A stretch of DNA of 33,534 bases, from IMG/VR virus record IMGVR_UViG_3300033553_000450, positions 1 to 33,534 of that record; one strand, written 5' to 3'. The stretch comes from a virus. The notes under the pieces were generated by a model. The model had not been told where the DNA came from and searched no databases. It saw only the letters and a list, made by a program, of their open reading frames with translations. Numbering within the stretch: position 1 is the first letter of the stretch; the number at the start of each line of letters is the position of its first letter. Positions 15,344 to 24,999 of this stretch are shown piece by piece. The position numbers were made by a program, and so were the translations under genes.

Positions 15344-15976
15344 ATGAAAGCCTGGTATCAATCGAAAACCTTGTGGGCCAACGCCCTGGGCATCGCGGCG
15401 ATGCTGCTGCAATCCGAAGTCGGCTACCTGATCGCGCCAGAATATCAGGCGGCTGGTCTGGGCCTGGTCAACATGTTGCTGCGGCCGATCACCAAGCAGC
15501 CGATCGGATGGAAAGCGCCTGGGACCGGAAGCCTTGGTATCGGCCTGATCATCGGCGGCTTAATGCTGACGCCGCTGCTCTCCGGCTGCGGGCTCAACCT
15601 GATTGAGGATCGGCCGGTGTTGACCGAACTGACGGTGCGGGTGGCCGCGGCCCGCGTGCTGGCAGAACATCCGGACTGGACCGAAAAAGCCCGCGACATT
15701 AGCCTCGACACCATCCGCGCGCTCGACGAAACCGAGCAGGTCGATCTGGCCGCCCTGGAGCAATCTGTGATGGATCAGGTCCCCTGGGACAAGCTGACCA
15801 TCGAAGAGCAGCAGTTGGTGGGCGTGCTGATCAGCGCGGTGCGTGCAGAGATCGAGGCGGAACTGTCGCTCCAGGGGATTGAGGTGCCGGAAAAAATCAA
15901 GGTGCGCGTGGCCACGGTGCTCGGCTGGATCTACCAGGTGGCCGATGCTCGTTTGCAGCGGGCGAGCGCGGGTTAG
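15344..15976 (+). CDS. Holin-like membrane protein fused to a lipoprotein-type domain
   Basis: The 210-residue protein begins like small phage holins (WYQSKTLWANALGIAAMLLQ, then a second hydrophobic stretch to residue 46). A third hydrophobic segment ends in a lipobox-like LSGC with Cys82 (TPLLSGCGLNL). A polar helical domain with coiled-coil character follows (about 90-200). One reading is a fused holin and spanin-type lipoprotein; another is a membrane protein that happens to carry LSGC. No ribosome-binding site was found before the internal ATG at codon 74, so separate translation is unlikely. AAGGAG precedes the start. Confidence 0.6.
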   Translation: MKAWYQSKTLWANALGIAAMLLQSEVGYLIAPEYQAAGLGLVNMLLRPITKQPIGWKAPGTGSLGIGLIIGGLMLTPLLSGCGLNLIEDRPVLTELTVRVAAARVLAEHPDWTEKARDISLDTIRALDETEQVDLAALEQSVMDQVPWDKLTIEEQQLVGVLISAVRAEIEAELSLQGIEVPEKIKVRVATVLGWIYQVADARLQRASAG

Positions 15977-21731: not shown

Positions 21732-21901
21732 TCGGCGGGTGCGAGAAATGCCCTGTAAGGCGCAAACGGGTCAAAACATAACCCAAGGTACGGGCAAGAG
21801 GTCGATCGTTGGATGCAGGGAAATTTAAAAAGGGTTTTAACACGGTTCACCATTACGGCGCGGGTCACGATTCGGGCTTTAAGGACGAGGATGGAGGGAA
21901 A

Positions 21902-22933
21902 ATGAAAATTCTGGTGATTGAAGATGACATTCGCACTGCCTTAAACGGCATGGATCTGCCCGAGGGTTGCGAGGTGATTGCGCTGAATTTCGAGCTACCG
22001 ACTGACGGCAGCGTGCCGGAGTCGATCGAGCTGCTGCAGAGCGGCGAGCGCATTGTCGGCCGCGATGGCCGGGAGTGGGTCAACGACGATCCGCAGGCGG
22101 TGATTGAATCGCTCAACGCTCGCGGCGTCGACCTGGTGATCGATTTCGAGCACGCCACTGAACTCAAGTCGCCCAACGGCGATCAGGCACCGGCTGCCGG
22201 CTGGGTCAACGGTTTCGAGCGGCGCGAAAACGGCTCGCTCTGGGGAAAAGTCTCCTGGACGCCGCGCGGATCGGCGGCGGTCGCCAATCGTGAATATCGT
22301 TATTTAAGCCCGGTGCTGCTTTATGAATCGACCTCGCGCCGGATTCGTTCGCTGTCCAGCATCGGGCTGGTCAACAAACCAAACCTGTTTAACGCCGCAC
22401 TGAATCGGCAACAGCAACCCGAACAGAAGGAGACAGACATGTTTAAAAAAATGCTTTTGAAGCTCGGCCTTGCCGAGACCGCCACCGAGGAGCAGGCGTT
22501 GAACGCCCTCTCGATCCTGCAGACCGACCTGCAGACCGCCCGCAACCGGGCGGAAACCCCCAGCCTCGACAAGTTTGTGCCGCGGCCCGACTACGATCAA
22601 GTATTGACCCGCGCCACCAACGCCGAGCAGGCGCTCAACGAAAAAATCAAAGCCGACCTGGAGACGGCCATCACCGCCGAGGTCGACGCGGCGGTCAAGG
22701 TGGGCAAGGTTACTCCGGCCACCAAGGAATTCTACGTCGGCATGTGCCGGCAGGAGGGCGGGCTCGAATCGTTCAAGAAGTTTGTTGCGGCCGCGCCGGT
22801 GATCTGCGATCCGTCGAAGCTTAACGGCAAGGAGATCCCCGTCGATGGCAAGGCGCTCAACGCTGAGCAGAAGCAGATCGCCGAGCTGTTTGGCAACAGC
22901 GAGGATGATCTTAAGAAATACGGCCAGGTCTAA
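21902..22933 (+). CDS. Prohead protease with fused scaffold (Mu I, gp32-like)
   Basis: The 343-residue protein has the Mu I protease part up to about residue 175, with the conserved DLVIDFEHATELK (His of the catalytic set), APAAGWV and RIRSLSSIGLVNKPN (candidate Ser). The C-terminal part is a helical scaffold with a final acidic tail. It cleaves scaffold and itself during prohead maturation. The start is the ATG with GGAGGG three bases upstream; an in-frame start at 21809 has no site. See the nested gene at 22439. Confidence 0.9.
   Translation: MKILVIEDDIRTALNGMDLPEGCEVIALNFELPTDGSVPESIELLQSGERIVGRDGREWVNDDPQAVIESLNARGVDLVIDFEHATELKSPNGDQAPAAGWVNGFERRENGSLWGKVSWTPRGSAAVANREYRYLSPVLLYESTSRRIRSLSSIGLVNKPNLFNAALNRQQQPEQKETDMFKKMLLKLGLAETATEEQALNALSILQTDLQTARNRAETPSLDKFVPRPDYDQVLTRATNAEQALNEKIKADLETAITAEVDAAVKVGKVTPATKEFYVGMCRQEGGLESFKKFVAAAPVICDPSKLNGKEIPVDGKALNAEQKQIAELFGNSEDDLKKYGQV
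22439..22933 (+). CDS. Nested in-frame scaffold protein (Mu Z-like)
   Basis: An internal ATG at codon 180 of the protease gene has AAGGAG exactly six bases before it, a better site than most genes in this window. It would give a 164-residue protein (start MFKKMLLKLGLAETATEEQA) equal to the scaffold domain. Mu gpZ is made the same way from inside gene I, and lambda Nu3 from inside C. Excess free scaffold is needed for head assembly. Confidence 0.8.
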   Translation: MFKKMLLKLGLAETATEEQALNALSILQTDLQTARNRAETPSLDKFVPRPDYDQVLTRATNAEQALNEKIKADLETAITAEVDAAVKVGKVTPATKEFYVGMCRQEGGLESFKKFVAAAPVICDPSKLNGKEIPVDGKALNAEQKQIAELFGNSEDDLKKYGQV

Positions 22934-22966: not shown

Positions 22967-23362
22967 ATGAGTGAACGCAACACGTTTCGCAAGCACGGCA
23001 AGTTGATCCCGTTCCTGGTCGCCGCTGTTCTGATCGAGGCCGGCAAGCTGGTCGCGGTCAACGCCGCCGGTTACCTGGTCGAGGCCTCAGACGCTGCCGG
23101 CATCATCGTGGTCGGCATCGCCGATGAAACCGTCGATAACTCGGCCGGTAACGCCGGCGACCTGTCGTGCACCGTGCGGCGCGGTGAGGCCTATCTGCTC
23201 GCGAACTCGGCGACCAACCCGGTTGTTCAGGCGAGCGTCGGCAGCAACGTTTTTGTCGAGGATGACGAGACCGTCGCTGTGGCTGCTGGTCCGACCAACG
23301 ACATTGTCGCTGGTGTCTGTCTGGAGGTCGGCGCGGACGGCGTCTGGATCGCAGTCGGTTAA
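22967..23362 (+). CDS. Head decoration (capsid cement) protein
   Basis: A 131-residue beta-rich protein (IEAGKLVAVNAAGYLVEASD, then IIVVGIADETVDN and VRRGEAYLLANS) similar to DUF2190-type decoration proteins that stabilise capsids. It sits between the protease/scaffold and major capsid genes, the usual place. GGAGG about ten bases upstream. Assignment rests on composition, order and pattern. Confidence 0.75.
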   Translation: MSERNTFRKHGKLIPFLVAAVLIEAGKLVAVNAAGYLVEASDAAGIIVVGIADETVDNSAGNAGDLSCTVRRGEAYLLANSATNPVVQASVGSNVFVEDDETVAVAAGPTNDIVAGVCLEVGADGVWIAVG

Positions 23363-23400
23363 CCCATTTTTAACAACCCTTTTATGGAGGTCTAAACATT

Positions 23401-24459
23401 ATGAAACGATTTGCCCTGTTCTTCGGACTGCTGATGCTCGTTTTGGCGGTCGCCTCGGTCGCCTGCGCCGATCCGGCGCTGGCCGAACCGATCACCTGGA
23501 AGATGTTGCTCGGCGGCGGCGGTGCTTTGCCGGCGCTGCTGATTAACGCCTCGACGCTGTCGAACATTTTTATCAACCTGAAAACCACCTTTAACAAGGC
23601 CTTCGACGCCGCACCGTCGGTCTGGCCCAAGATCGCCATGCTGGTTCCGTCGAACGGCAGCCAGAATGATTATGCCTGGTTGGAAAACTTTCCTAAGATG
23701 CGTCAGTGGGTCGGCGACAAGGTGCTTAAAGCGCTGAAGGCCGGCAAGTACGTTCTGGTTAACCAGGAGTTTGAGGCAACGGTCTCGGTCGCGCGGCGGG
23801 ATATCGAAACCGATCAGCTCGGCGTCTACGCTCCGCAAGCGCAGAACGCCGGCTTCTCGGCCCGGCAGTGGCCCGACGAGCTGGTGATGGATATGCTCAC
23901 CAACGGCTTTACCAACCTGTGTTTCGACGGCAAGCCCTTCTACTCCACAACCCACCCGGTGGTTAACCCGGTCACCGGTAAACCGGCCAACGTCAGCAAC
24001 AAGTTGACCGTAGCGCTCTCGGCGGCCACCCAGGCCGCAGCGATCGCCAGTCTCGGCGCGGCACGAACCGCCATGAAAAAGTTTAAGGACGACGAGGGGC
24101 GGCCGCTCAACACCTCTCCGAACCTGCTGGTGGTCGGACCGGCTCTCGAGGACGTGGCCAACGTCCTGGCAATGAATGACCGCCTCGAGGACGGCAAGCC
24201 GAACCCCTTCAAAGGGACGGTCGAGGTGCTGGTCGATGCGCGGATCGACACCGACACCGAGTGGCATCTGCTCGATACCACCAAGCCGGTCAAGCCGATT
24301 GTCTTCCAGCAGCGCAAGGCGCCGGTCTTTGTTAGCCAGACCGATATGTCCTCGGACTCTGTCTTTATGCGCGGCGAGTACCACTTTGGTGCTGAAGCGA
24401 GTGGCGCGGCCGGGTACGGCTTCTGGCAGCTCGCGGTTGGTTCCACCGGCGCCGGTTAA
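23401..24459 (+). CDS. Major capsid protein (Mu T, gp34-like) with an N-terminal signal-peptide-like extension
   Basis: The 352-residue protein matches Mu gpT from about residue 49 on: NLKTTFNKAFDAAPSVWPKI, DYAWLENFPKMRQWVGD, FEATVSVARRDIETDQLG and the FDGKPFYSTTHPV loop. Its first 28 residues look like a Sec signal peptide: MKRF, a hydrophobic core (FALFFGLLMLVLAVASV) and an ALA-EP cleavage motif. Mu gpT has no such extension. The ATG at 23401 has GGAGG ten bases upstream, while the internal ATG at codon 35 (before LLGGGG) has none. HK97 fold is expected. Confidence 0.93.
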   Translation: MKRFALFFGLLMLVLAVASVACADPALAEPITWKMLLGGGGALPALLINASTLSNIFINLKTTFNKAFDAAPSVWPKIAMLVPSNGSQNDYAWLENFPKMRQWVGDKVLKALKAGKYVLVNQEFEATVSVARRDIETDQLGVYAPQAQNAGFSARQWPDELVMDMLTNGFTNLCFDGKPFYSTTHPVVNPVTGKPANVSNKLTVALSAATQAAAIASLGAARTAMKKFKDDEGRPLNTSPNLLVVGPALEDVANVLAMNDRLEDGKPNPFKGTVEVLVDARIDTDTEWHLLDTTKPVKPIVFQQRKAPVFVSQTDMSSDSVFMRGEYHFGAEASGAAGYGFWQLAVGSTGAG

Positions 24460-24492
24460 TCCCGCGCCACAACAACACCATGCAATGACCTG

Positions 24493-24520
24493 CCCGGGGG
24501 TGGCTACCTCCGCCCCCGGG
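24493..24520 (+). terminator. Hairpin after the major capsid gene
   Basis: CCCGGGGG at 24493-24500 pairs perfectly with CCCCCGGG at 24513-24520, followed only by AACTTTG. It is probably a partial attenuator or mRNA-stabilising hairpin that raises capsid over downstream expression. Two direct copies of CGCTAGCC follow between about 24530 and 24560. Confidence 0.55.
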
Positions 24521-24576
24521 AACTTTGAAACCGCTAGCCTCTCGTCGCTAGCCCCTGGTTAAAGGCTTAAAAAACC

Positions 24577-24999
24577 ATGTACACAACGCAAGACGACATC
24601 CTGGAGAGGATCCCCGAAGAGACGCTGACTCAGCTGACCGATGACGACAATGTCGGCACCATCGATGCCGACAAGGTGACTGCGGCGATCGCGCGCGCCG
24701 GGCAGGAAATCGACGCCTATTGCGGTGGCCGCTACAGCGTACCGTTTGCCACGGCTCCGGCTGTGATCAGTGGGTTGGCCACAGACATGGCGATCTATTT
24801 TCTCTACGGCAGAACTCAAGAAGAGATCCCGGAGACGCGCAAGGACGCCTACAAGAACGCCGTGCGTCAGCTCGAAAGAATCGCCGACGGCAAGAGCTCT
24901 CTGGGCGTTGATCCGACACCGGCCGCGCCGAGCGGATCGGGCGCCAGCTTTTCCGGCGGAACGCGGCGTTTTAATCGCGACACCCTGAAAGGCATGTGA
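24577..24999 (+). CDS. DUF1320 head-tail connector protein (Mu gp36)
   Basis: A 140-residue protein of the DUF1320 family: MYTTQDDILERIPEETLTQL, AAIARAGQEIDAYCGGRYSVP, then IYFLYGR. It is the Mu gp36 equivalent and probably an adaptor between portal and tail. The C-terminus is Gly/Ser-rich. It overlaps the next gene by one base. Confidence 0.92.
   Translation: MYTTQDDILERIPEETLTQLTDDDNVGTIDADKVTAAIARAGQEIDAYCGGRYSVPFATAPAVISGLATDMAIYFLYGRTQEEIPETRKDAYKNAVRQLERIADGKSSLGVDPTPAAPSGSGASFSGGTRRFNRDTLKGM

Follow-up and report, generated by a model that had tools for sequence, protein, structure and literature searches.

Tailed phages are taken to make their major capsid proteins as soluble proteins of the cytoplasm, and the capsid family of the Mu-like phages (gpT) is a known one. 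The solved capsid chains of Mu and JBD30 begin at or near the canonical position, and gpT is likewise short in D3112, Alteromonadaceae phage B23, Mushuvirus, and Rhodobacter phage RC1. The JBD30 structures resolve the N-terminus of gpT (residues 2-14), and at the portal interface the chain is seen from residue 2; its N-terminal arm, helical over residues 6-25 in the procapsid, becomes an inter-capsomer hook once the head has matured (PMC11445458). Membrane-bound procapsids are not described in the tomograms of JBD30, a phage of the short type. Elsewhere, T4 builds its heads on the inner membrane, with a connector chaperone as the anchor, and the M13 coat protein pVIII is membrane anchored (PMC3185693).

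Here, we analyzed a viral stretch of 33,534 nucleotides (the window; IMG/VR record IMGVR_UViG_3300033553_000450), in which the forward-strand ORF at 23401-24459 encodes a 352-aa major capsid protein of the Mu gpT type, the one gpT copy found in this 33.5-kb record. The PF10124 (Mu-like_gpT) match to this protein (3.5e-90; 302.7 bits versus a curated cutoff of 20.1) begins at residue 54, the match to PHROG 371 "major head protein" begins at residue 47, and about 45-46 residues sit ahead of the canonical gpT start, defined by the aligned Met position. The initial annotation had counted about 48 residues there, close to the 45 measured here. These extra 45 residues are absent from every named member examined. 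In INPHARED, all of the matches listed for the window protein align from residue 48 on, and all of those listed for homolog L015 from residue 47 or later; the upstream frame was checked for some of these listed matches. No earlier description of a signal peptide on gpT or HK97-type capsid proteins was found in the searched open literature, and the signal-like N-terminal module, as opposed to the capsid family, appears to be the new part.

The capsid gene of the window

The gene order of the window is that of Mu-like phages (I protease, decoration-type protein, gpT, gp36), with the following features:

21809..22933, + strand: Mu-like I protein, a prohead protease with a scaffold region and the candidate processing enzyme (Mu-like_Pro, 3.1e-60; phrog_328, 2.1e-86)
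22967..23362, + strand: virion structural (decoration-type) protein, the 5' neighbor (phrog_1731), conserved in this place in relatives of both the extended and the short type
23386..23390, + strand: Shine-Dalgarno GGAGG of the capsid gene, seen in the sequence 10 nt 5' of ATG 23401
23401..23484, + strand: signal-peptide-like segment, residues 1-28, with an MKR n-region, a hydrophobic core, and a predicted helix at residues 2-21
23485..23511, + strand: linker, residues 29-37, nearly without K/R and rich in D/E, P, G, and A over 56 relatives; disordered in models
23512..23538, + strand: Gly-rich hydrophobic motif GGGGALPAL, residues 38-46, where the extension meets the canonical gpT start; an inferred candidate prohead protease site
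23536..24459, + strand: gpT capsid domain with the HK97 fold, beginning at the codon that aligns with the initiator Met of short gpTs and ending at the stop (Pfam/PHROG; Foldseek to JBD30 and Mu capsids)
24577-24999: gp36, the 3' neighbor of gpT

As read from the translation, the capsid ORF opens with MKRFALFFGLLMLVLAVASVACADPALA, followed directly by EPITWKMLLGGGGALPALLINASTLSN, and its N-terminal stretch is MKRFALFFGLLMLVLAVASVACADPALAEPITWKMLLGGGGALPALLIN-ASTLSN. Candidate AxA sites lie after A23 (ACA, before D) and after A28 (ALA, before E). No Shine-Dalgarno sequence was found at the internal ATGs 23434 and 23503 or at the in-frame codons around the usual gpT start (CTG 23536 and CTG 23539), nor does codon 35, named in the initial annotation as an internal start that would undo its reading, have a ribosome-binding site. 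Both AlphaFold models, one for the window protein and one for homolog L099, place a helix at the N-terminus (residues 2-21 and 3-23, respectively), followed by a disordered linker to about residue 50 and then the HK97 capsid domain, and in a Foldseek search, the JBD30 procapsid and Mu capsid rank first (8rkx, 9jod, and 8rkc).

The gap between gpT and gp36 in the window (24459-24577) is only 118 nt, and an extra small gene lies there in 69 of 89 loci of relatives. In L096, two adjoining genes 3' of gpT (L096:5166-5732 and L096:5823-6146) have signal-peptide-like starts and a cargo-like position. Farther away in the window, positions 15344-15976 encode a protein of 210 aa that has hydrophobic stretches as well as a lipobox-like LLSGC and may belong to the lysis module.

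Recurrence and character of the extension

Homologs were taken from IMG/VR and GTDB genomes, and their starts were placed by frame and Shine-Dalgarno sequence. Among about 150 distinct gpT homologs, 56 usable ones are extended and 96 are without an extension, a share that is no estimate for the whole family because the search used conserved peptides of the window's own subgroup. With two protease-capsid fusions and one contig-edge truncation set aside, the length of the extension is bimodal, either none or 40-57 aa with no intermediates, and the short proteins are nearly uniform in their start (94 begin one residue before the canonical core and 2 one residue after). Frames of 529 and 528 aa (L131:319-1908 and L137, reverse strand), in which a gpT-like domain follows about 240 other residues, are apparently such fusions.

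A Shine-Dalgarno sequence precedes the far ATG in 55 of the 56 extended genes and is missing from the canonical position in 54, exactly where 93 of the 96 short relatives have one. Judged from these sequence signals and from the pattern of substitution described below, the far start is shown to be genuine, and the extension of about 46 residues that follows it appears to be translated and under selection.

The signal-peptide-like character that the initial annotation saw in the first 28 residues is real and recurs. All 56 extended proteins have a basic n-region and a hydrophobic h-region, and 50 additionally have the small residues of an AxA site at -3/-1, as expected of type I Sec signals; the AxA rule is a simple one and also counts loosely placed sites. 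The same signature rule, basic start and hydrophobic core included, is satisfied by 8 of 610 neighboring ORFs, some of which are decoration-type proteins whose hydrophobic stretch lies further in, by 0 of 48 short gpTs, and by a mean of 3.3 of 40 shuffled extensions. Lipoprotein and Tat signals were considered and rejected (lipobox in 1/56, twin arginine in 0/56).

The distribution of charge is equally uneven. Over the 56 extended sequences, the n-region holds 109 K/R versus 3 D/E, the hydrophobic core has no charged residues, and the linker has K/R at 8 and D/E at 88 of 956 positions (binomial p ~7e-16 versus the gpT domain's own balance). This is the layout that the positive-inside rule predicts for a membrane-entering segment with the linker on the far side. 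The junction motif (consensus L-x-G-I-G-F-[AG]-G-[LM]-L-V-N) is almost uncharged, with 2 charged residues among 616 at positions -9 to +1, and has Gly at -2 in 49 of the 56 proteins. A two-helix hairpin of the M13 procoat kind is not supported, as the second hydrophobic segment passes a 19-residue hydropathy test in 3 of 56 sequences and is disordered in both models; being too short for a standard transmembrane helix and modeled as disordered, this segment gives no support to a return helix.

The signal-like segment, linker, and GG motif are also found in L288, L294, and L301, whose gpTs are just 36-51% identical to that of the window, and genome-derived extended gpTs come from Nitrosovibrio sp. 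Nv4 (L002), Methylotenera, a deltaproteobacterial MAG, and more genomes of the L002 family. These comparisons of predicted proteins confirm that the extension is a recurrent module and not a peculiarity of the window phage. Of the explanations first offered for it, a propeptide or membrane-anchored intermediate gains support, as the feature recurs in many relatives with its character conserved, while a one-off capture of a host signal sequence is not supported, given that the same architecture, Gly-rich junction included, is found in at least 56 distinct gpTs and in those of only 36-51% identity.

Evolution and distribution of the extension

Signal peptides typically keep their character and not their letters. 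In close pairs, dN/dS was 0.05-0.98 for the extension versus 0.02-0.33 for the capsid core of the same pairs, with broadly comparable dS, so that the extension is estimated to evolve several-fold to more than tenfold faster than the capsid domain. Taken with the conserved layout, these ratios show an extension that evolves fast yet is constrained, in the manner of a signal peptide.

In trees built on capsid cores with the extension left out, presence and absence changed at least 17 times among 89 cores (10 changes forced by well-supported branches) and 23 times among 151 cores (14 forced). In close pairs, one side has the extension between the neighbor gene and gpT and the other cleanly lacks it (L065 versus L064/L081, L096 versus L098, L033 versus L034, and L019 versus L013). 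Relatives lacking the extension had been expected, if the signal-peptide reading were wrong, to show a degenerate region; such relatives exist, and in them the region is cleanly absent. The gpT genes L013:2989-4029 and L014:2989-4029 are mosaic, with near-identical extensions and late capsid parts around a diverged middle, which indicates that phage-to-phage exchange can move the cassette, and the common junction motif speaks for a single type of module and against a series of unrelated captures. Fusion of a small signal-peptide gene through a lost stop was rejected as the origin, since the gap between the neighbor gene and gpT in most short relatives is about 10-110 nt and has no such ORF inside.

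No convincing neighbor gene separating extended from short phages was found within 3 kb (smallest Fisher p ~0.02, uncorrected, over ~20 clusters). One short-gpT phage (L114:1868-2917) has an upstream decoration-type protein with an N-terminal extension of about 60 residues, two hydrophobic segments, and its own AGGAGG. An extended neighbor protein was rejected as a general alternative to the gpT extension, as it occurs in only 1 of 149 loci, although this single case suggests that what matters is bringing a capsid component to the membrane.

A proposed membrane-targeting propeptide and its alternatives

The membrane-targeting signature predicted for the extension is well supported. We consider it somewhat better than an even chance that the first ~46 residues are a membrane-targeting propeptide, which would tether newly made capsid subunits to the inner membrane until it is cut off before or during maturation; the membrane stage of assembly, the protease and its cleavage site, and the order of steps are what we infer. 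At the inner membrane, SRP/Sec or YidC would receive the nascent chain by way of its MKR/hydrophobic segment, and the linker would enter or cross that membrane, while the gpT domain would fold on the cytoplasmic side and co-assemble there with scaffold and portal. Since the N-terminal arm of JBD30 gpT forms the inter-capsomer hook, the ~46 added residues must be removed or accommodated. Removal may occur through (i) signal peptidase I at an AxA site and/or (ii) the phage I protease at the G-[LM]-L-V-N junction, whose conservation is only suggestive of a prohead protease cut site, and would leave the N-terminal hook of a short gpT and free the head. One argument against docking is that a Sec signal in full working order would send the subunit out into the periplasm, an outcome that cannot be reconciled with packaging in the cytoplasm; the model assumes retention. 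A broader picture is put forward tentatively, as slightly less than an even bet: in a widespread group of tailed transposable phages, head building would pass through a membrane-bound stage, with a signal on each major capsid subunit; proteolysis of the anchor would release the procapsid, assembling or finished, and gain or loss of a ~140-bp cassette would switch the stage on and off among close relatives.

The extension might instead be an internal, scaffold-like propeptide that acts inside the procapsid, where it would cluster subunits or bind scaffold until the I protease removes it; any resemblance to a signal peptide would then be incidental. Extended and short types share the I protease/scaffold neighborhood, and cleavage at the conserved G-[LM] junction would give back the canonical N-terminus. 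However, short relatives with the same neighbors assemble without an extension, the charge asymmetry between n-region and linker and the frequency of AxA sites would be unexpected, and the HK97 delta domain, the model for such a part, is unlike the short, hydrophobic gpT extension; we regard this account as improbable. It is quite unlikely, even with a textbook type I signal that includes AxA in most members, that some or all of the capsid protein leaves for the periplasm or the cell surface to do a second job there (e.g., a superinfection block) while cytoplasmic copies build heads, since with one gpT found in the window's record, all copies would bear the signal, and export takes subunits away from the site of assembly.

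Leaky internal initiation, in which the subunit would be translated from around codon 46 and the long form would be minor or regulatory (dual-start or nascent-chain control), could draw on the ATG or CTG found at the canonical Met position in 49 of 56 extended genes. This preference for Met/Leu is accounted for by a conserved hydrophobic position, and the ribosome-binding site that nearly all short relatives have there is missing from 54 of 56 extended ones, leaving such initiation very doubtful. The window and most relatives are metagenomic, as would suit a frameshift, misassembly, or mis-called start, but the extension recurs across bacterial genomes and numerous independent contigs, is in frame every time, and comes with a Shine-Dalgarno sequence and signal-type evolution, which makes the chance of an artifact negligible.

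That the most abundant protein of the virion recurrently bears an export-type signal prompts the questions of whether heads assemble on the inner membrane and of what keeps a Sec-targeted capsid subunit out of the periplasm. An export-like front end across a large group of uncultured Mu-like phages implies a membrane step for the shell protein that is not seen in Mu, D3112, or JBD30. Closely related capsid proteins with and without the cassette offer a natural experiment, and annotators should not trim extended N-termini to the "usual" gpT start.

Comparison with known systems

The Mu-like gpT proteins (PF10124; Mu, D3112, and JBD30; PDB 9jod, 8rkc, and 8rkx) have the capsid domain, gene order, and HK97 fold in common with the window protein. 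The named members begin at the canonical N-terminus (e.g., M-[IL]-[IV]-[NT]), whereas in the window group 40-57 signal-like residues come first; the canonical N-terminal hook start is a usual gpT feature and no condition of PF10124 membership. The delta domain of HK97 is likewise an N-terminal stretch before an HK97-fold domain, and in the window group this stretch is possibly also cut by the prohead protease. In contrast to the delta domain, the window extension is short and hydrophobic, with a basic n-region and AxA, and Mu-like phages already own a separate scaffold.

The M13 procoat (the pVIII precursor) has a cleavable signal sequence, and it resembles the window group as a phage major coat protein that starts with a signal sequence and turns acidic behind AxA. 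The two differ in that M13 has an unrelated fold and virion, and the second hydrophobic segment of the window group is short and not predicted to be helical. Bacterial type I Sec signal peptides resemble the extension in their n-, h-, and c-regions, AxA, fast evolution, and K/R-poor following segment, while the predicted signal of the window sits on a protein with a known job in the cytoplasm.
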